Below, piece after piece: positions 2,300-23,699 of a stretch of 27,751 nt of DNA. The DNA is from a virus. Made by a program: the position numbers and the translations under genes. Under the pieces are notes generated by a model. The model saw only the letters and a list, made by a program, of their open reading frames with translations. It ran no database searches and was not told where the DNA came from. The first letter of the stretch is position 1. Every line of letters starts with the position of its first letter. The stretch lies in the IMG/VR virus record IMGVR_UViG_3300025012_000253, positions 1 to 27,751 of that record; one strand, written 5' to 3'.

Positions 2300-3898
2300 A
2301 TGTACTATTTAAAGGAGGTGAGAAAGACGAAAAATAGCGTAATTGAAATATCTAAAAAAATAGCAAAAGCAGGTAGAACACCAATTAAATTAATTTTGCA
2401 CGAATTGCATAAAGATTCTGAAGACTATAATGGAAATGGAATACACTGGACAAAAGAGTATGCTGAAAACAATATCGAATCAGTAAAAGGAATGCCTCTT
2501 GTAGCACAATTTATGGATAGCGAAAATACAATTCCTTTTGGAAGTCATGGAGATATGATAGTTGAAGAAAATAGAGTAATTTTTGAAGATAGTTTAGTGG
2601 TTGGTTCTTTTGAAAGTGGATACATAGTAGAAAATATTGAAGTAAACAATAAAACAATTGATGCCGTAGTAGGGGTAGGTTATGTGTATGATCAAAGATT
2701 CCCAGAATTAGTAGATTATTTGCAAGAAGAATATGATAATGGAAATTCTGTAGAAGGTTCAATAGAAATTTGTGCAGATAAATCATTGGGGAATAAGAAA
2801 ATAATTTATGATGGGGGATGGAAAGAAAAAAATAGAATTCCTATGTCGTATCAATACTCAGGACATGCCCTTGTAATTGGAGAAGTTCCTGCTGATAAAT
2901 CTGCTCTCATGTTGGAGTTGAATACGCTCAAGAAAAAAGAGGTGAATATATTGCCAGATAACATAGACAACAAAGATAAAACAATAATTGAAATAAATGC
3001 AATGAATTATAATGATATTTCTATGATTGTTGAAAGTAAATTCAATAAAAAACAAAATATAGATGAATCAAATTATTCTTATTATTATGTTCATAAATTT
3101 TATCCAACTATATCAACATTCATAATGAAATGTTGGGATAAAACAGGAGAATATTGTCAAATTACTTATACAGTTGAAAATGGTGAGGTAAAACTTGGTG
3201 AAACTATTAAAGTCGAGGAAGATTGGAAGCCTTTAAATGGCGAAGAATCTGTCGAAGTTAATACACCAGTTAAAAATATATTAAATAATCAAACAAAGGA
3301 GGAAAGTAAAAAAATGGATGAAAAAATCGTATTAGAACTTAATCAAAAAATCGAAGATAAAATTAATGAAATTAATACTCTTACAAACTCCCTAGAACAA
3401 AAAGGAGTAGAGATCAATTCATTGACTAAATCTTTGGAGGAAAAAGCAACAGAAATTAATACTCTAACTGAAAAAGCAACAGAACTAGATAATAAAGTAA
3501 TTGAACTAAACACCAGTATTGTTGAGGTTAATAAATTACTTGAGTCTGAAAAAGCGGAAAAAGAATCTCTTACAGTAGAAGTAAATTCTTTTAGAGAAGA
3601 AAAAATTAAAACAGAATCAGAAGCAAAAATTGCAGAAGTAAATTCTTATTTTGAAACAGAAATTACAAAGAATGGATTTGAAGAATCAGAAGTAAATTCT
3701 CTTAAATCTTTTGTAGAAGCTATTGATCTGGAAGGATTGAAGAAAGCAGAAGCAGAATTATGTGCAAAGAAATTTAAAGAAATGATTGCATCTCAAGATA
3801 CTTCTGTTGAAACTAATACTAAGAATGATATGTTTATTTCTATTAAAGAAAAAGAAATGAAAAAAGTTCCTGGTAGCATCCCATCTTTCTTTAACTAA
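2300..3898 (+). CDS. Prohead protease fused to scaffold protein
   Basis: A 532-residue head maturation protein with three parts. Residues about 16-160 look like a phage prohead serine protease, with a candidate catalytic His83 (in GSHGD) and Ser154 (in SVEGSIEI). Residues about 225-335 form a mixed alpha/beta linker domain (YYYVHKFYPTISTF...). Residues about 340-500 form a heptad-rich coiled coil (repeated EINTLT/EINSLT units) of scaffold type. The protein would cut scaffold and capsid during head assembly. It lies between portal and capsid genes, as expected. The start is uncertain: ATG 2300 has no ribosome site, whereas AAGGAGGT at 2312-2319 points to ACG at 2327. An internal start at 3314 probably yields free scaffold. 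The protease call is by motif and position; the exact family was not confirmed. Confidence 0.75.
   Translation: MYYLKEVRKTKNSVIEISKKIAKAGRTPIKLILHELHKDSEDYNGNGIHWTKEYAENNIESVKGMPLVAQFMDSENTIPFGSHGDMIVEENRVIFEDSLVVGSFESGYIVENIEVNNKTIDAVVGVGYVYDQRFPELVDYLQEEYDNGNSVEGSIEICADKSLGNKKIIYDGGWKEKNRIPMSYQYSGHALVIGEVPADKSALMLELNTLKKKEVNILPDNIDNKDKTIIEINAMNYNDISMIVESKFNKKQNIDESNYSYYYVHKFYPTISTFIMKCWDKTGEYCQITYTVENGEVKLGETIKVEEDWKPLNGEESVEVNTPVKNILNNQTKEESKKMDEKIVLELNQKIEDKINEINTLTNSLEQKGVEINSLTKSLEEKATEINTLTEKATELDNKVIELNTSIVEVNKLLESEKAEKESLTVEVNSFREEKIKTESEAKIAEVNSYFETEITKNGFEESEVNSLKSFVEAIDLEGLKKAEAELCAKKFKEMIASQDTSVETNTKNDMFISIKEKEMKKVPGSIPSFFN
2312..2319 (+). promoter_or_regulatory. Shine-Dalgarno pointing to ACG 2327
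   Basis: AAGGAGGT sits 12 bases downstream of the only ATG (2300) and 7 bases before an in-frame ACG (2327). No ATG, GTG or TTG lies at the right distance; the GTG at 2318 overlaps the site itself. Confidence 0.55.
3295..3302 (+). promoter_or_regulatory. Internal Shine-Dalgarno for free scaffold
   Basis: AAAGGAGG lies inside the protease-scaffold gene, 11 bases before an in-frame ATG at 3314, exactly at the linker-to-coiled-coil boundary. Confidence 0.65.
3314..3898 (+). CDS. Internal in-frame start: free scaffold protein
   Basis: This reading shares the frame and stop of the protease-scaffold gene and would give a 194-residue protein starting MDEKIVLELNQKIEDK. It consists almost entirely of a coiled coil with heptad-like repeats (EIN-[ST]-LT-[EKN]) and a charged C-terminal end, the build of a phage scaffold. 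A near-consensus ribosome site stands in front of the ATG in a place where the protein sequence does not need it. The layout matches the known lambda C/Nu3 arrangement, where scaffold is translated from inside the protease gene in the same frame. That both products are made here is inferred. Confidence 0.65.
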   Translation: MDEKIVLELNQKIEDKINEINTLTNSLEQKGVEINSLTKSLEEKATEINTLTEKATELDNKVIELNTSIVEVNKLLESEKAEKESLTVEVNSFREEKIKTESEAKIAEVNSYFETEITKNGFEESEVNSLKSFVEAIDLEGLKKAEAELCAKKFKEMIASQDTSVETNTKNDMFISIKEKEMKKVPGSIPSFFN

Positions 3899-4588: not shown

Positions 4589-5704
4589 ATGAGTTTTGGA
4601 ATAGATTTTTCAAATTTTCAAGAAAATGCAGAACAAGTGGAGATTAATAAAAATGTTAAGAACATTTTAGCAAATACTCGCCCAAATGAAGAAGTAGAGA
4701 TTTTTACAAATATTGTTTATGGTAAAGATGTATCTAAATATGGTAAAAAAGTTGATACAGTAATGGATAAGATTAAAATGTTGGCTACTGCTGCGACTAA
4801 TGGCAATAGTCAAGCAATCACAGAACTGAATGCTATTCGGACTGTTACTATTCGTCAACCTTTAGAAAAAAGACTTGCTATTAACAATGCTATGGGCTCG
4901 GTTACAAAGGTCGGATTTAATGAGGCCATGTATTATGAAGTATACCAATTGCAAGGTCAGAAGTCTAGAGTTCAAGCTTCGTCTGGTGCCTTCGTATTCC
5001 CTACTGTCAAGAAAAGAACTGGTACTATGGAAACTCAGACTTCCACTGGAGGCGTTTCTGTTGATTTTCGTGAGTTACAGAGTGGGGCAACAACAGGATT
5101 TGCTGAAGCCAATGAACAGGTAATGACTGACATGGTTAACCAAATGGTTCTTTCTCATATTAATGCTTTACGATCAGGTATTACTTCTGCAACCACTTTA
5201 AAGAACTATGCTGAAGGAATTACTAAGACAAATGTTGAGGATGTTAGAAAGAAAGCAAGACGATTTGGTACTTCTGTAACAATTATGGGAGACTATAGTG
5301 CAGTTAGCAAACTTGCTGATCTTGCTAATTTTAGTGTTGTGGCTGCTGGCACAGAATTTAGATTCCCAGATTCAGTGATGGAAGAGGTAATGAAAACTGG
5401 TTTGATTAAGAATTACAAAGGTAGTATTGTAGTTGAATTGCCAAACTCTTACAACATGATTGATCTTAATACTTCTAGTGATTTCTATGCTCCTCAATTA
5501 CCTACGACTGACTTATGGTTCTTACCACAAGGATCTGTTAGTCCATTACAGATTTGTCTGCGTGGCGATATGACGACAATGACTGGCACAGATTTAAATA
5601 CTCGGAGTGTCGTAACTCGCTATGATTGGGAATTTTCAAATTATTTGGTGCCGGAATATGTACCACAAATTGGATATTTGTATGATGCAGCTCTGGCTGA
5701 ATAA
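4589..5704 (+). CDS. Major capsid protein (HK97-fold type)
   Basis: A 371-residue protein that follows the scaffold and decoration genes and ends the head module at a terminator. The N-terminal ~100 residues are helical and charged. The body has the pattern of an HK97-type capsid protein: a beta strand and helix region (QASSGAFVFPTVKKRTG), a long helix (EANEQVMTDMVNQMVLSHINALRSG) and a C-terminal stretch with LPQGSVSPLQICLRGDM. Codon use is visibly richer in GCT/GGT/ACT/GTT than in neighbouring genes, as expected for the most abundant virion protein. The ATG has an AAGAGGT ribosome site. Identity is from position, length and fold pattern; residues for cross-linking were not assigned. Confidence 0.75.
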   Translation: MSFGIDFSNFQENAEQVEINKNVKNILANTRPNEEVEIFTNIVYGKDVSKYGKKVDTVMDKIKMLATAATNGNSQAITELNAIRTVTIRQPLEKRLAINNAMGSVTKVGFNEAMYYEVYQLQGQKSRVQASSGAFVFPTVKKRTGTMETQTSTGGVSVDFRELQSGATTGFAEANEQVMTDMVNQMVLSHINALRSGITSATTLKNYAEGITKTNVEDVRKKARRFGTSVTIMGDYSAVSKLADLANFSVVAAGTEFRFPDSVMEEVMKTGLIKNYKGSIVVELPNSYNMIDLNTSSDFYAPQLPTTDLWFLPQGSVSPLQICLRGDMTTMTGTDLNTRSVVTRYDWEFSNYLVPEYVPQIGYLYDAALAE

Positions 5705-5853: not shown

Positions 5854-7077
5854 TTGGCAAAAAGACTAACATATGAATCTATTAAAAACTATATAAATAG
5901 TGAAGAAACAGGAAATGGTTGTAAAATATTAATTTCGGAAGAAGAATTTGAGTTAGAAAAAGTTACGCAAAATAAAAACAACTCAAAAGTAAAATTAAAA
6001 ATTCAATGTGGTTGTGAAGATCATAATATATTTGAGCCATGTTTTAATAAATTTAAATCAAATAATCAAAAACAATGTCAAGAATGTGGAAATAAAAATA
6101 CGGGCAACAAATTACGAAAACCATATGAAAAGGTTAAGTTTTTCATAGAAACAGAAAGCAAAAGTAATTGTAAGTTAAAAAGTAAAACATATGAAAATGC
6201 AAAAGAAAATTTAGATATTGAATGCCGATGCGGAACACCATTTCAAACATCTTTTGATTGTTTTTCAAGTGGAAACAAAAGACAATGTGACAATTGTACC
6301 TCAAAAATGATTTCACAATTATATAAAATACCATATAGCGATATAAAAGCATATATTGAAGGTGAAAACGGTAATGGATGCAAATTGTTGACTAATGAAA
6401 TTGATTATATTAATACAAATGAAGATATATTAATAAAATGTTCATGTAAAAAAGAAAATAAATTTATTACAACGTATGATAGGTTTAAAAATCAAAATAA
6501 GAAACAATGTGACGATTGTACAAAGATTAATAAAAGAAAAACTTGCCTATTAAAGTATGGATTTGAACATCCTATGCAAAATAAAGAAGTATCTTCAAAA
6601 GTAAGGGAAACGCTAACTAAAAATGGAAATGTATCTTGTAGTAGTCAACAAAGATATGTTCACAGCATAATAGGAGGAGAATTAAATTATCCATATTATA
6701 ATGCATCTTTAGACATAGCATTCTCAGAAGAGATGATTTATTGTGAATGTGATTTTGGTGGACATTGGTTATCTATTAAATTGGGTGGATTAACTCAAGA
6801 AGAATTTGATAAAAAGCAAAGAAATAGATGGTACTCTTTATTTCGTTCTCACTGGAGAGAAATCCGTATAATCTCAACTAAAGACCTAATCCCATCAGAC
6901 CAAAAACTTCTAGAAATTCTATTATACGCACGTACATATCTAAATCAAAATCACCATTACATAAAATTCGACATTGACAATTCAAAAATAATTAATTCTC
7001 AAGGTAAATTCGACTATGATTATGGTGAGTTAAGGAGAATAAAACCAATAGATATAGAAGTTCAAGAAGCAATCTAA
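5854..7077 (+). CDS. Homing-endonuclease-like protein with three zinc-ribbon repeats and Vsr-like nuclease core
   Basis: A 407-residue protein with a TTG start preceded by GGAGGAG (5841-5847). Residues 5-222 hold three similar repeats, each with a tyrosine-led helix, a CKL/CKI strand, a CxC pair and a later CxxC pair: C52/C54 with C75/C78, C124/C126 with C145/C148, C196/C198 with C219/C222. Each could bind one zinc and contact DNA. A short TCLLKYGFEHPMQN-type segment, often seen before nuclease domains in mobile genes, follows. The C-terminal core has D287, E298, D300 and H304 (CECDFGGHW), then WREIRIIS, which fits the Vsr-like or EDxHD class of homing nuclease. It stands alone after the capsid terminator. 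The nuclease role is inferred from motifs; the target is unknown. Confidence 0.65.
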   Translation: MAKRLTYESIKNYINSEETGNGCKILISEEEFELEKVTQNKNNSKVKLKIQCGCEDHNIFEPCFNKFKSNNQKQCQECGNKNTGNKLRKPYEKVKFFIETESKSNCKLKSKTYENAKENLDIECRCGTPFQTSFDCFSSGNKRQCDNCTSKMISQLYKIPYSDIKAYIEGENGNGCKLLTNEIDYINTNEDILIKCSCKKENKFITTYDRFKNQNKKQCDDCTKINKRKTCLLKYGFEHPMQNKEVSSKVRETLTKNGNVSCSSQQRYVHSIIGGELNYPYYNASLDIAFSEEMIYCECDFGGHWLSIKLGGLTQEEFDKKQRNRWYSLFRSHWREIRIISTKDLIPSDQKLLEILLYARTYLNQNHHYIKFDIDNSKIINSQGKFDYDYGELRRIKPIDIEVQEAI

Positions 7078-16836: not shown

Positions 16837-18300
16837 TTGAGAAAAGTATTTTTAGATGATTTACCACATAAAAAGGGCAACAATAATAAAATTGATTGGA
16901 AAAATAGCATTGGAGCATGGGTACCTTTCATATATGATAGTATAGAAAATAAGGTTCAAATAGTAAATTATAACGAAAAATATTTATATATTAAATATAA
17001 GGATGAAGACATTTTTAAAATTTTAACAGATGGTTTTGCAAAAGGCAAACTTGGTAAATTATTAGGTATAGTGACGATGAAATTTAGAGCAAACATCGGA
17101 GAAAATATAAGGAATTTAACTATTATAGATAGAGAATATAGAATAAATAAATATGGTCAAAACCAAAAATGGTATCGCTATAAGTGTAATTTATGCACGT
17201 GGGACAATGGTTATATGGAAGAGTCCGCTTTATTATCAAAAGGTCAAAATTGTTCTTGTTGTAGTGGTTCTGTTTGCGTGGAAGGGATTAATGATGTTGC
17301 TACTACTGATTTAAAAATAGTTAAATTTTTTAAAAACCTTGAAGACGCTAAGAAAAATACACACGGAAGTGAGAAAACAGTACAGGTAATATGTCCCGAA
17401 TGTGGTGAGGAAAAAGAGATTGCAGTATGGATATTATGCTATTATGGTTCAATCCGTTGCACATGCGGAGATGGATTTTCGTATGGACATAAATATATTT
17501 ATAACCTCCTAACACAACTTGACCAACAATTTAAAGGAAATTTGAGGTTTGATTGGTGTAAATTTTATAATCCTTATAAAAACAAAGATATGAATGGAGA
17601 ATACGACTTTGTTTTGGAAAATAATAAAATAATTATTGAGGTTGATGGAGAATTTCACAGAAAAGATAATATGATGAATGGTCAAACCAAAGAAGAATCT
17701 AAATATATTGATGATGAAAAAGATAGGCTTGCTAGTGAAAATGGTTATAAAATAATTAGAATATATTATGACGATAAAAATACAGAAATCAAGACATATA
17801 TATTAGAGTCAGAATTAAACAATATATTTAATTTATCGAGTATTGATTGGGATATATGTGAAAAATTTGCCTTATGCAATTTAATAAAAACTGCCAGTGA
17901 ATATAAGAAAAATAATCCAGATGTAACCAGTATACAAATAAGTGAGTTAATGGGGTTAAGTATTCCTACGATAATAAGTTATTTAAAGAAAGGTTCAAAA
18001 ATAGGTTGGTGCAATTACAATCCAAAAGAAGAAAGTCATAAAGCGGGCGCAAAAAGTGGAAAAGCATGTGGTAAGCCAGTAGAAATATTTAAAGATTTAG
18101 TTAGTTTGGGTATATTTGAATCCACCTTAGACCTCGAAAGGCAATCAGAAAAATTATTAGGAATTAAATTAAATCACTCTAGCATTTCATTAATATGTAA
18201 TAATAAAAAAGATACATACAAAGGATTCACATTCAAATACATACCTAATCAACAACCAACTTCCCAAGAAGAAGCACCCAACCAAGTTGCTTCTTTTTAA
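16837..18300 (+). CDS. Homing endonuclease, Vsr-like (EDxHD-type) with NUMOD1 DNA-binding domain
   Basis: A 487-residue protein with a TTG start after AAAGGAAAGTGAT. Residues 105-215 hold four Cys clusters (C117/C120, C139-C147, C186/C189, C208/C210) of zinc-ribbon type. The nuclease core at about 255-315 has EYDFVL (D257), IIIEVDGEFHRK (E268, D270, H274), DDEKDRLA and GYKIIRIYYDD, the pattern of Vsr-like and EDxHD homing nucleases. Residues about 360-395 form a helix-turn-helix (ISELMGLSIPTIISYLKKG), and the C-terminal ~60 residues (KPVEIFKDLVSLGIFESTLD ... GFTFKY) look like NUMOD1, a DNA-binding unit found in homing endonucleases. It is free-standing between two fibre genes. Cleavage site unknown. 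The last codons form a terminator. Confidence 0.8.
   Translation: MRKVFLDDLPHKKGNNNKIDWKNSIGAWVPFIYDSIENKVQIVNYNEKYLYIKYKDEDIFKILTDGFAKGKLGKLLGIVTMKFRANIGENIRNLTIIDREYRINKYGQNQKWYRYKCNLCTWDNGYMEESALLSKGQNCSCCSGSVCVEGINDVATTDLKIVKFFKNLEDAKKNTHGSEKTVQVICPECGEEKEIAVWILCYYGSIRCTCGDGFSYGHKYIYNLLTQLDQQFKGNLRFDWCKFYNPYKNKDMNGEYDFVLENNKIIIEVDGEFHRKDNMMNGQTKEESKYIDDEKDRLASENGYKIIRIYYDDKNTEIKTYILESELNNIFNLSSIDWDICEKFALCNLIKTASEYKKNNPDVTSIQISELMGLSIPTIISYLKKGSKIGWCNYNPKEESHKAGAKSGKACGKPVEIFKDLVSLGIFESTLDLERQSEKLLGIKLNHSSISLICNNKKDTYKGFTFKYIPNQQPTSQEEAPNQVASF
18266..18298 (+). terminator. Intrinsic terminator overlapping the endonuclease stop
   Basis: An 11-bp stem (core AAGAAGCA / TGCTTCTT, extended by AAG / TTT with one G-U pair) with an 11-base loop. 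The T run lies in the right arm, next to the TAA at 18298-18300. Confidence 0.7.
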
Positions 18301-20477: not shown

Positions 20478-20499
20478 ATAAATATTTTTCAATGGATTG

Positions 20500-20533
20500 A
20501 ATCTCATTCTTTAATTAGAATGAGATTTTATTG
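20500..20533 (+). terminator. Intrinsic terminator
   Basis: A perfect 11-bp stem AATCTCATTCT / AGAATGAGATT with a 6-base loop and TTTATT after it. It lies immediately before RNA element A and overlaps its first bases. Confidence 0.7.
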
Positions 20534-20630
20534 TGTTGAAAAATCAATGCAATAAACAGGATAGGGTAGCTCCCGAAAGTCGTAATCCTTAACGATTTCC
20601 TGTTTATATACCTTTTAAGGAAACAAATAA
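20529..20630 (+). ncRNA. Structured RNA element A (candidate new family), upstream of ORF6N-nuclease gene
   Basis: P0: TATTGTGTTGA (20529-20539) pairs with TCAATGCAATA (20544-20554), loop AAAA. P1: AAACAGGA (20554-20561) pairs with TCCTGTTT (20598-20605). Inside P1: TA, then P2 GGG/CCC with loop TAGCT, then GA, then P3 AAGTCGT / ACGATTT (20577-20598) with loop AATCCTTA. The L3 bases CCTTA can pair with TAGGG before P2, which allows a pseudoknot. The element ends in ACAAATAA (20623-20630). A second copy with compensatory changes is at 22396. Function unknown: it may be a cis-acting leader controlling the nuclease or a processed RNA. Confidence 0.6.
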
Positions 20631-20652
20631 AATATTAAAGGAGATGTTAAAA

Positions 20653-21513
20653 ATGGAAAATGAAAAAGAATTAGTAATTAATGGAAGCACAATGGTTAAT
20701 GGGATTGAAATACCAAACATATGTGGTGGGTTTAATAAAGACTCAAAAGTTATTCTAGCAAATACTGTATCTAAACTACACGGAAGACCACTAGGAGATA
20801 TTAACGCATTGATAAACAATAACAGATCACATTTTGTTGATGGTATTGATATTTTTAATTTAAAAAATAATAAATATTTAATTAATATACTAATTGATAA
20901 TAAAATTGTTACTAAAAATGCAGTAAACGCTAGTAAATATATATATTTACTTAGTAAATCAGGATATGAAATAATATGTTCAATTTTAGAAAATGCCAAT
21001 AAAGATACTATTGATCAAGTATTTAGGAAATGTTTTAATTCATTTAATACTAATATAATATTTTTAAATAGATATGAAAGTGAATTTAAGAATTTATTAT
21101 TTAGCATATTAGGAAATTTTATAGCAATTAAATGTCAGTTTCCAATTTTACAATATAGAGTAGATTTCTTTATTCCATCATTAAAGTTAATTATTGAAGA
21201 GGGACATATTTATAATAAAGAAAAAGATCATAAAAGAGAAGAAAATATTCAGGAAGAATTTAAAAGATGGCATGTAGAAGATGAATATACAAAAATTAAT
21301 ATATTAAGAATTAATAAAAACAATGAATATGTGGGAATAGGAGAAATTATGAAAATTGCTACATATTACGGTATATTTAAAGAAATGTATATAGGTAGGA
21401 AAGATAGACTTTCTTATGTAGAAAATTTGTATGATTATTTTATGGACTTTTATACAAAAGAATATTGTGATGAAAAGAATATATTCAGGTTAAAATCTAA
21501 TACATACAATTAG
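20653..21513 (+). CDS. ORF6N-like DNA-binding domain fused to a nuclease-like C-terminal domain
   Basis: A 286-residue protein. ATG 20653 lies nine bases after AAAGGAG; ATG 20644 touches that site and is less likely. Residues 1-125 match the pattern of ORF6N/Bro-type phage regulatory proteins (EIPNICGGFNKDSKVILANTV, then GRPLGDINALINNNRSHFVDGIDIF and YLLSKSGYEIICSIL). Residues about 140-250 resemble the C-terminal nuclease seen on some such proteins (YRVDFFIPSLKLIIEEGHIY, then DHKREENIQEEF and INILRINKNNE). The usual E-x-D-x-x-H core is altered: an Asp seems missing between the Glu and the His, so activity is doubtful. It is directly downstream of RNA element A. It may be a mobile element relic or a regulator. 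Confidence 0.55.
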   Translation: MENEKELVINGSTMVNGIEIPNICGGFNKDSKVILANTVSKLHGRPLGDINALINNNRSHFVDGIDIFNLKNNKYLINILIDNKIVTKNAVNASKYIYLLSKSGYEIICSILENANKDTIDQVFRKCFNSFNTNIIFLNRYESEFKNLLFSILGNFIAIKCQFPILQYRVDFFIPSLKLIIEEGHIYNKEKDHKREENIQEEFKRWHVEDEYTKINILRINKNNEYVGIGEIMKIATYYGIFKEMYIGRKDRLSYVENLYDYFMDFYTKEYCDEKNIFRLKSNTYN

Positions 21514-21810: not shown

Positions 21811-22356
21811 ATTAATTATATACACGCATATGATCTTTCAATGGAATCAACAGGATTTTGTATATTTGATGAAAATATGAAAGCAGTGTTGATTGATTCT
21901 ATACCCACGAAGAAAAGTCAATCTCATGGAAAAAGATTGAAAGTAATTGCTGTAAAAATGGCTGAATTAAAAACAAATTATCCTACTAAAACAATTGTAA
22001 TTGAAAGAGGATTTAGTAGATTTAATATGGCAACTCAAGTTATTTATCGCGTTCATGGTGTGACAAACTTAATCTTTCACGATTGTGAGCAAATATATTA
22101 CCCTCCTAAGACAGTTAAGGAAGCAATATTAGGTGGAAATGCTACTAAGAAACAAGTACAGGATGAAATTAAGAAAAGATATCCTGATTTAGTTTTTAAG
22201 ACAGATGATGAAAGCGACAGTATGGCAGTAGGGATTACATATTTCATTAAGACTGGGCAATTGGAATGGGTTAAGGATGTTGTAGTTAAGGAGAAGAAAG
22301 TTAGAGTTAAGAAGGATAGTAAGGAAAAGGTTGATAAAGAAAAGGTTAATAAATAA
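21811..22356 (+). CDS. RuvC-like Holliday junction resolvase
   Basis: A member of the RuvC/RNase H-like resolvase group that would cut four-way DNA junctions before packaging. The acidic residues are all present if translation starts at ATT 21811: D8 in AYDLSMESTG, E65 in TIVIERGF, and D132/D133 with D136 in TDDESDSMAV. The RuvC-type segment YPPKTVKEAILGGNATKKQVQ is also present. The first ATG (21841) falls after D8 and would remove a catalytic residue, so the start must be upstream. The only in-frame choices after the TGA at 21802 are ATT 21811 or ATA 21820, and GGAGATGA at 21797-21804 fits ATT. Length 181 residues, with a Lys/Val-rich tail. It is flanked by two nuclease genes, each with its RNA element upstream. 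Confidence 0.75.
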   Translation: MNYIHAYDLSMESTGFCIFDENMKAVLIDSIPTKKSQSHGKRLKVIAVKMAELKTNYPTKTIVIERGFSRFNMATQVIYRVHGVTNLIFHDCEQIYYPPKTVKEAILGGNATKKQVQDEIKKRYPDLVFKTDDESDSMAVGITYFIKTGQLEWVKDVVVKEKKVRVKKDSKEKVDKEKVNK

Positions 22357-22372
22357 TTTTACATAGAATTTT

Positions 22373-22398
22373 AGGCACTAGAAATAGTGTCTTTATTT
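22373..22398 (+). terminator. Terminator after the resolvase
   Basis: An 8-bp stem AGGCACTA / TAGTGTCT (one G-U pair) closed by a GAAA tetraloop and followed by TTATTT. Confidence 0.6.
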
Positions 22399-22492
22399 GT
22401 GTGTAAAAACACAAAGCAGGATAGGGAGAGCTACCCGATAAGCCAATTAGTCCTATTGGTTTCCTGCTTATTGCTTTTTGGAGGACAAATAA
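22396..22492 (+). ncRNA. Structured RNA element B (second copy), upstream of repeat-bearing nuclease gene
   Basis: P0: TTTGTGT (22396-22402) pairs with ACACAAA (22409-22415). P1: AAGCAGGA (22414-22421) pairs with TCCTGCTT (22462-22469). Inside P1: TA, P2 GGG/CCC with an AGAGCTA loop, GA, then P3 AAGCCAAT / ATTGGTTT (22440-22462) with loop TAGTCCT. The L3 bases TCCTA can pair with TAGGG. The element ends in GGACAAATAA. Compared with element A, P1 keeps pairing through an A-T to G-C exchange and P3 has a different sequence but the same shape. The nuclease start codon is 22 bases further on. Confidence 0.6.
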
Positions 22493-22514
22493 TACGAAGG
22501 ACGGTGTTGTGATA

Positions 22515-23699
22515 ATGGCATTAAAAAAGTTTACAGATGAGAAATTAATTGAAATCATGAGGGATTATATCAAGGAGATTGGAATACCTAAATCTAAGGA
22601 TTTTAAAGCAAAGAATGGATTACCTGCTAGTGAATTGTATAGAAAAAGGTTTGGAAGTTGGTATGAATCATTATTGCTTGCAGGAGCAAAAATACCAGAA
22701 GATAGACAAAGATTTTATCAAAATGATAGATTAACAGACGAAAAACTTTTAGACGATTTGAGAATAATTACAGAAATTCATTTAAAAGACAATGTATATT
22801 TATTGAATAGTTCTGATTTTATAAAATATAACACAGTTCAATCTTATTCAGCTTATGAGAGAAGATTTGGAAGTATAGAAAATACATATAAATTAATTGG
22901 ATATGACTATAATATTTTTAATAATAAAGCGTTAGAAAATGATATGTTACTTAAATTAAAAGAAGTAAATAACATATTAGGTAAAACTCCTAATACATAC
23001 GATTTAAACAGTTTTAGTCAAACTAAAGAAGGATATTATAGTGCTAGTGCATATGATCGTCATTTCGGAAATATATCAAATTCATTATTATTAGTAGGAT
23101 TAAAACCGACACAAGGTAGTATTACTAGAAAAATGGATGAAGAAGGATTGATTCAAAGTTTAAAAGACTTTTATGTAAAATATAATAGAATACCATCTCA
23201 ACCAGACACAAATGAAGAGAAAGGTATGCCAGGATATACAACCTATGTTAAAAGGTTTGGTTCTTGGGATACCGCCTTAAAGAAAGCATTTGGTAATAAA
23301 TTTAGACTTAAAAGAGTAGCAAAAGCTATGACCACAAAAGGTGGTAGATTGTGCAAATCTATGTTGGAATATTTATTTGCTACAATGTTAGAGGATCATA
23401 ATATTGACTTTAAATTAGATAAAATATATTACAGAGATTATATTCCTGATTATAAGGGAGGATATAGATTTGATTTTCTATTACATTTAGATGGTAAAGA
23501 TATTTTTATTGAGATATTTGGATTCTTAGGGAAACAATTTAAATCACAAGTTAAATATGCAAGTGATAAGGATACTAAAATAAAGTTATGTAAGGATAAT
23601 GGATTAACTTTATTGTCTTTTTATCCATATCATATTTATAGAAAAACATCAGATAAAATATATGAAATATTTGAAAATAAATTAAAGGAAGTGAAATAA
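22515..23699 (+). CDS. Homing-endonuclease-like protein with four associated repeats and PD-(D/E)XK-like core
   Basis: A 394-residue protein started at ATG 22515 (ribosome site GAAGGACGG). Residues 3-250 hold four units of the homing-endonuclease-associated repeat (PF18780 type), each about 55-65 residues and ending in R-[HKR]-F-G-[SN]-[WI]: YRKRFGSW, YERRFGSI, YDRHFGNI, YVKRFGSW. Such repeats bind DNA in tandem. The C-terminal ~130 residues carry SMLEYLFATMLEDHNI, RFDFLLHLDGKDIFIEIFGF, DKDTKIKLCKDNGLTLLSFYPYH, the order of a PD-(D/E)XK-like nuclease (E, D, E-x-F, K). It is probably a free-standing homing nuclease. It follows RNA element B and is joined to the recombinase gene without a gap. 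Confidence 0.7.
   Translation: MALKKFTDEKLIEIMRDYIKEIGIPKSKDFKAKNGLPASELYRKRFGSWYESLLLAGAKIPEDRQRFYQNDRLTDEKLLDDLRIITEIHLKDNVYLLNSSDFIKYNTVQSYSAYERRFGSIENTYKLIGYDYNIFNNKALENDMLLKLKEVNNILGKTPNTYDLNSFSQTKEGYYSASAYDRHFGNISNSLLLVGLKPTQGSITRKMDEEGLIQSLKDFYVKYNRIPSQPDTNEEKGMPGYTTYVKRFGSWDTALKKAFGNKFRLKRVAKAMTTKGGRLCKSMLEYLFATMLEDHNIDFKLDKIYYRDYIPDYKGGYRFDFLLHLDGKDIFIEIFGFLGKQFKSQVKYASDKDTKIKLCKDNGLTLLSFYPYHIYRKTSDKIYEIFENKLKEVK

Follow-up and report, generated by a model that had tools for sequence, protein, structure and literature searches.

A leader RNA with one loop and two complements: a candidate cis-acting translational switch ahead of homing-endonuclease and other phage genes

Translational riboswitches of the preQ1 and SAM-II types have loop-tail pseudoknots that reach the Shine-Dalgarno (SD) sequence, and the int-alpA RNAs, filed in Rfam as RF02996, owe their name to the int and alpA genes between which they were originally noticed. 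A literature search, whose coverage excluded the original int-alpA description, gave no account of int-alpA function; the RF02996 consensus itself contains a loop, CCuUua, and a 3′ tail, uaAgGG, that are complementary, yet this pair is unannotated. In phages, SD-sequestering hairpins are described for the homing endonuclease genes I-TevI and segB of T4 and mobE of Aeh1 (PMC3014915).

Here we analyse two RNA elements, A and B, in a viral DNA stretch of 27,751 nt (IMG/VR record IMGVR_UViG_3300025012_000253, positions 1 to 27,751; hereafter the window). The data point to element B as a 5′ leader that controls the downstream gene in cis, as a translational switch with two states, a reading to which we assign a probability of about 0.74.

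The RNA of element B occupies positions 22414–22508, with a junction part (22414–22469) followed by a 39-nt tail and then by the GTG start codon of the gene at 22509 (Table 1). An initial annotation of this DNA had described a P1/P2/P3 layout with joints TA and GA and with AGCT and TCCT in loops 2 and 3, respectively, all of which are present. Read in order, the core consists of joint UA, P2 (GGG/CCC, 22424–22426 paired to 22434–22436), the loop AGAGCUA, and joint GA. Helices P1, P2, and P3, plus P4 around the SD, all appear in the minimum-energy fold of B; the P4 of A is absent from A's own minimum-energy fold. Folding of B and A gave modest z-scores (−1.93 and −1.88, respectively) because the pseudoknot lies outside the folding model. 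By structure prediction and sequence comparison, helices P1, P2, and P3 of B meet in a three-way junction, and B is genuinely related to element A.

Table 1. Coordinates of elements A and B, their parts, and the adjoining features of the window.
Feature	Position	Strand	Description
Intrinsic terminator ahead of A	20499–20528	+	terminator search
Element A, P1/P2/P3 three-way junction	20552–20607	+	RF02996 member (41.2 bits); R1 score 61.9 bits
Loop 3 of A, AAUCCUUA	20584–20591	+	contains UCCUUA
Proximal repeat of A, UAAGGA	20616–20621	+	complement of loop 3 UCCUUA
P4-like hairpin of A with SD	20632–20648	+	AAGGA (20638–20642) complements loop 3 UCCUU
Gene proposed to be controlled by A	20653–21513	+	ORF6N domain and weak DUF559-like C-terminus
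RuvC gene upstream of B	21841–22356	+	RuvC-like
Intrinsic terminator of the upstream RuvC-like gene	22373–22392	+	8 bp stem, T run; directly ahead of the B leader
P1 of B, 5′ strand (AAGCAGGA)	22414–22421	+	8 bp, partner 22462–22469; P1 covarying in 103 relatives
Conserved core of B	22422–22438	+	unpaired bases near-invariant among relatives
P3 hairpin of B (AGCCAAU/AUUGGUU)	22441–22461	+	7 bp
Loop 3 of B, UAGUCCU	22448–22454	+	loop of P3
P1 of B, 3′ strand (UCCUGCUU)	22462–22469	+	partner 22414–22421
Proximal repeat of B, AGGAC	22482–22486	+	complement of loop 3 GUCCU (pseudoknot PK1)
P4 hairpin of B, AAUAC-[GAAGGACG]-GUGUU	22491–22508	+	SD presented in loop
Second loop 3 complement of B, AGGAC	22498–22502	+	SD region, inside P4 loop
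Gene proposed to be controlled by B	22509–23699	+	396 aa; GTG 6 nt past the AGGAC copy; HNH_repeat

Two further parts of the annotated layout fared less well. Helix P0 is present in B and weakly in A, and the family does not conserve it (65 of 119 elements vs. 57.5 expected); the ACAAATAA tail, taken as a feature shared by the two copies, is not a family feature. The meaningful parts of the tail are the loop-3-complementary repeat AGGAC and the P4 hairpin that holds the SD. On the minus strand, the antisense of P1/P2 (22409–22436) scored as a terminator-like hairpin, which is probably a by-product of the RNA structure.

The core pattern GATAG..AGCT..CGA occurs at exactly two sites in the window, A and B, against a shuffle mean of 0.01, and two sites were reached in 0 of 100 shuffles. 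The covariance model R1 was built from 22 sequences, with A as the sole one from the window and B excluded; run with filters off, it finds B with 22.1 bits (E = 2.7e-4), the next-best window match having E = 0.16. A default genome search with R1 listed A only, and blastn of element B against phages gave no match. The recovery of B by a model that had not seen it, together with the two core sites, bears out the view that B is a second copy.

Beyond the window, the tight core pattern was found in 79 viral and 42 bacterial contigs, and a variant pattern, which reads GGCTAG where the first has GGATAG, gave at least 120 matches. The broad first core pattern had yielded mostly chance sites in viral contigs, and tight patterns with structural filters were used instead; diverged copies, B among them, escape the tight pattern. 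Among bacterial genomes of two phyla, 2 of 398 and 1 of 398 carry the tight pattern, each count taking in the genome on which the draw was centred, and this low prevalence indicates that viruses and proviruses are the main carriers of the element.

Covariation across the family is strong, and the initial annotation had held its lack to be grounds for rejecting the element. In the 103 R1 matches, 96.6% of the pair cells are standard pairs, and the covariation score is 0.670, compared with 0.138 for shuffled data and at most 0.093 for slid partners. The compensatory changes first seen between A and B extend to the family, with 12 of the 14 pairs changed on both sides; the last P1 pair, for example, shifts from A-U to C-G in a compensatory manner (AU in 69 and CG in 23 of 102 distinct sequences). 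The unpaired bases UAG, [A/C]GCU, and GAWAA are near-invariant, an invariance that is partly imposed since the loci were gathered by the core pattern; loop 3, P4, the P1 ends, and the tails are free of this selection. The corresponding joint of B reads CGAUAAG, and the family shows both AUAAG and AAAAG.

It should be noted that only element A reaches the RF02996 gathering cut-off of 35.8. An Rfam search with B, at the gathering score or at E up to 5, gave no RF02996 match, and a minus-strand L13_leader match obtained at relaxed E was weak and was dismissed as chance; no other riboswitch family of Rfam matched the element. Of 20 loci known to bear the element, the RF02996 model at its gathering score recognizes 7, which makes R1 the better search model. 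Because B falls below the cut-off, we place it in the wider R1 class, of which RF02996 is the described part; B is a significant R1 match, and its loop 3 is complementary both to the repeat and to the SD in the P4 loop. With regard to the int-alpA gene context, an integrase gene lies one gene downstream; alpA was not identified.

Complements of 4–7 nt are short, and those of a single element would prove little. Loop 3 was compared with its own tail in 107 non-redundant leaders (62 GATAG-form and 45 GCTAG-form elements) against 1000 permutations. Against its own proximal repeat, loop 3 forms a mean of 5.18 WC pairs in both forms, whereas the permuted means are 3.09 and 3.20 and the permutation maxima 3.47 (GATAG form) and 3.87 (GCTAG form). 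Against its own SD region the means are 4.71 (GATAG form) and 4.69 (GCTAG form), with permuted values of 3.36 and 3.33 and maxima of 3.68 and 3.73, respectively. Since the permutation swaps loops among real leaders, a generic anti-SD likeness cannot explain the excess; the rule for choosing ORF starts favours an SD-like triplet and introduces no bias toward loop-3 complementarity between elements. The mean duplex energies of the two pairings are nearly the same, −6.78 kcal/mol for loop 3 with the repeat and −6.77 kcal/mol for loop 3 with the SD.

The spacing of these parts is regular. P1 and the repeat are separated by a linker with a median length of 7 nt, the end of the distal complement is most often found 7 nt ahead of the start codon, and the leader-to-start-codon distance has a median of 33–34.5 nt (107 cases). 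A P4 stem of at least 5 bp around a GG-bearing loop is present in 69 of the 107 leaders compared with 16.9 expected, with every pair type seen; 22 of the 107 are without a P4 of at least 4 bp. The suggestion that A and B share a common control element is borne out by the covarying leader, the complementarity of loop 3 to the SD, and a position about 34 nt ahead of starts in 107 cases. For A, the gene start at 20653 was picked by SD spacing; the listed ORF begins at 20644.

Rfam types RF02996 as ‘Gene; sRNA’, so that loop 3 might target other mRNAs in trans and the adjacent gene be incidental. Such a function would suit a loop 3 that is CU-rich and anti-SD-like, and also the promoter-like −10 sequences that stand directly ahead of P1 in many copies: of 119 elements, 51 have a −10-like hexamer no more than 18 nt upstream of P1, compared with 8 in the control stretches, and many transcripts thus probably start at P1. 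Three observations nevertheless make a trans-acting sRNA improbable. The RNA is followed by a start codon at a median distance of about 34 nt, and the intervening hairpin holds the SD; loop 3 is a far better match to its own tail and SD than to the tails and SDs of other elements; and within the window no stem-plus-T-run separates the RNA from the gene. No strong promoter is visible ahead of A or B, and an intrinsic terminator precedes each instead.

In the window, loop 3 of A is able to pair with the SD of B as well as with its own. One provirus-like locus (L198, minus strand) carries two leaders (3242–3293 and 4626–4677) ahead of two genes, and each loop 3 there is better matched to its own repeat and its own SD.

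The cis-acting switch that we favour would work as follows. The single loop 3 has two possible partners, and pairing with both at once is presumably excluded. When loop 3 pairs with the proximal repeat, the SD would be free and the gene ON; when it forms a loop-loop kiss with the SD, the SD would be hidden and the gene OFF. The proximal repeat would thereby serve as a decoy of the ribosome-binding site, loop 3 choosing between decoy and SD, and the near-equal strength of the two duplexes suggests a bistable RNA. Some factor that recognizes the conserved core, whether a small molecule, a protein, or a part of the ribosome, could tip the balance. We lean slightly toward the compact core-plus-PK1 state as the recognized, ON state, on the grounds that its linker is short and constrained, and the direction is a guess. 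The initial annotation overlooked what is the key part of the element, the pairing of loop 3 with the repeat and the SD. Sequence comparison shows the element to be a three-way junction with a conserved unpaired core and two loop 3 complements that change together with loop 3.

As to the factor, two readings deserve consideration. A structured conserved leader and an alternative fold over the SD, which are expected of a riboswitch, are found here in silico, and the int-alpA-like RNAs might be a large, hitherto overlooked phage riboswitch class that responds to one widely conserved signal, such as a metabolite, an ion, or an infection-stage cue; this we advance tentatively. With the same reserve, such a riboswitch may time the translation of homing, replication, and capsid genes in phages that infect many bacterial phyla. 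Somewhat less likely is a leader in which a host or phage protein, or the ribosome, binds the core, with the same switch between loop 3 and the SD. Conservation of the core across phages of distant hosts would be compatible with such binding, and bound proteins are common at phage leaders (T4 review, PMC3014915), but no conserved neighbour protein is fit to be the partner, and autoregulation by the gene product is unlikely because the downstream proteins are unrelated.

The protein encoded behind B contains homing-endonuclease-associated repeats (PF18780, E = 2.4e-33, three stretches) and a putative C-terminal nuclease motif; single-sequence structure prediction gave a pLDDT of 33 and was unusable. 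BLASTP found no relation between the proteins behind A and B, in agreement with the earlier statement that two unrelated nuclease genes share the leader, and close relatives of the two were not found in viral contigs. Two more homing-endonuclease-like genes of the window (5854–7077 and 16837–18300; PHROGs homing endonuclease/HNH) are without a leader.

Across the family, homing endonucleases are the commonest among the recognizable genes behind the leader. In a first set of 60 downstream proteins, about 21 match HNH, NUMOD4/HNH, GIY-YIG, or endonuclease VII families, and PHROGs adds two further HNH proteins. Other types in this set are DUF927 (L032), an integrase (L195), phage replication protein O (Phage_rep_O, L198), and DUF6387 (L196), as well as, by PHROGs, a major head protein (L145, E = 1.1e-36) and DnaD-like or replication-initiation proteins (L137, L171). 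HNH, GIY-YIG, and endonuclease VII domains recur in a second set of 40 proteins, where DUF551, a BRO/ANT antirepressor, Rep3, DUF1376, HTH_36, and an aminotransferase also occur; in E. coli prophages the RNA lies ahead of a DUF551 gene. Leaders of head-protein genes were seen at L145 (6503–6550, PHROG 1005) and L167, an uncommon location for a switch that otherwise stands at accessory genes. At another locus (L011, 326–2415), an IS607-type element with a RAGATH-18 RNA seems to interrupt the leader's gene right after the SD.

Comparisons of the same site in related phages support portable leader-gene cassettes. In Vibrio phage 1.167.O the RNA and the gene occupy 2979–3803, on the other strand from the tail operon, and in Vibrio phages 1.133.O and 1.226.O the flanks are joined, with neither RNA nor gene. 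Pseudomonas phage phPA-G has a 549-base insert (L235, 1983–2531) composed of the leader, a 134-aa gene, and a terminator-like hairpin; Pseudomonas phage phi1 (L247) has neither RNA nor gene at this site. Joint absence, the check proposed with the initial annotation, is thus seen in all three phages. Phage D3 (L250, 888–1600) carries a leader at the same site with different genes (orf23 and orf24). At L235 2078–2482, where the leader points to the plus-strand 134-aa gene, the public record of phPA-G has a minus-strand gene.

The homology between phPA-G and D3 ends at 2020, inside the RNA core, and the genes beyond differ, which makes the conserved core a possible crossover point in one case. 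One could go further and suppose that the core is mainly a recombination homology block for swapping the gene behind it, with regulation secondary; the D3-like site and the absence of both parts in phi1 speak for this. Only one case is clear, though, and a block of this kind has no use for the covariation of loop 3, repeat, and SD or for the compensation in P1 and P3, so we consider this explanation improbable too, a shade more so than an sRNA.

The initial annotation had also raised a mobile RNA-plus-nuclease unit. The joint absence of RNA and gene at empty sites stands in its favour, as does the frequency of HNH, GIY-YIG, or endonuclease VII enzymes downstream. The strict form, in which RNA and nuclease belong together and the RNA may even be an OMEGA-like guide for the downstream nuclease, conflicts with the range of genes behind the same RNA: the annotation had named RNA without a nuclease as counterevidence, and Phage_rep_O, DnaD-like loaders, DUF927, the head protein, the integrase, BRO, Rep3, and DUF551 provide it. 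Conversely, 79 of 80 viral loci that encode homologues of one small endonuclease-associated protein (L142, DUF723 match) are without the RNA, which the identical locus alone has, and the gene behind B has a homologue in Geobacillus E3 that is without it as well. The nuclease folds are unrelated and none has RuvC/TnpB/IscB-type domains, and loop 3 is accounted for by its own leader. We regard the strict unit as the least probable of the explanations weighed here; neither is the RNA bound to nucleases nor are nucleases bound to the RNA. An OMEGA/IscB/TnpB guide RNA was rejected, the partner of B being an HNH_repeat protein and partners elsewhere being unrelated. Mobility under the cis-acting switch would instead take the form of promoter-leader-gene cassettes that are gained and lost in phage genomes.

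Taken together, the covariation data suggest that a family catalogued as an sRNA of unassigned function acts as a leader in cis and carries its own decoy of the ribosome-binding site. Unrelated phages have it ahead of genes for homing endonucleases, replication proteins, and antirepressors, and in one case for a capsid protein. The proposed choice of loop 3 between repeat and SD is a directly testable mechanism; the element is a strong orphan-riboswitch candidate, and the switch suggests how phage operons may keep selfish nuclease genes quiet.

RF02996 is among the nearest described systems. Element B has its three-stem layout, with P1 enclosing two hairpins, and its UAG/CGAAA joints; the differences are that Rfam gives an sRNA where we see a probable cis leader, in which the complement recurs at the SD and which precedes genes of many types, and that P1 closes here by A-U besides C-G. 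In its manner of action, to the extent that this can be read from sequence, B is like a pseudoknot riboswitch or a protein-gated leader. With the preQ1 and SAM-II types it shares a 5′ leader position, a conserved unpaired core, a tail/SD pseudoknot, and an alternative pairing of the SD; in contrast to them, two targets, one of which is a separate repeat, compete for its loop 3, and its context is one of phage accessory, homing, and replication genes and not a metabolic pathway. The hairpins of the T4 type resemble B in that an RNA structure at the ribosome-binding site controls the translation of a phage homing endonuclease (PMC3014915), but they are simple and gene-specific, whereas the conserved three-way junction is common to unrelated genes and phages.
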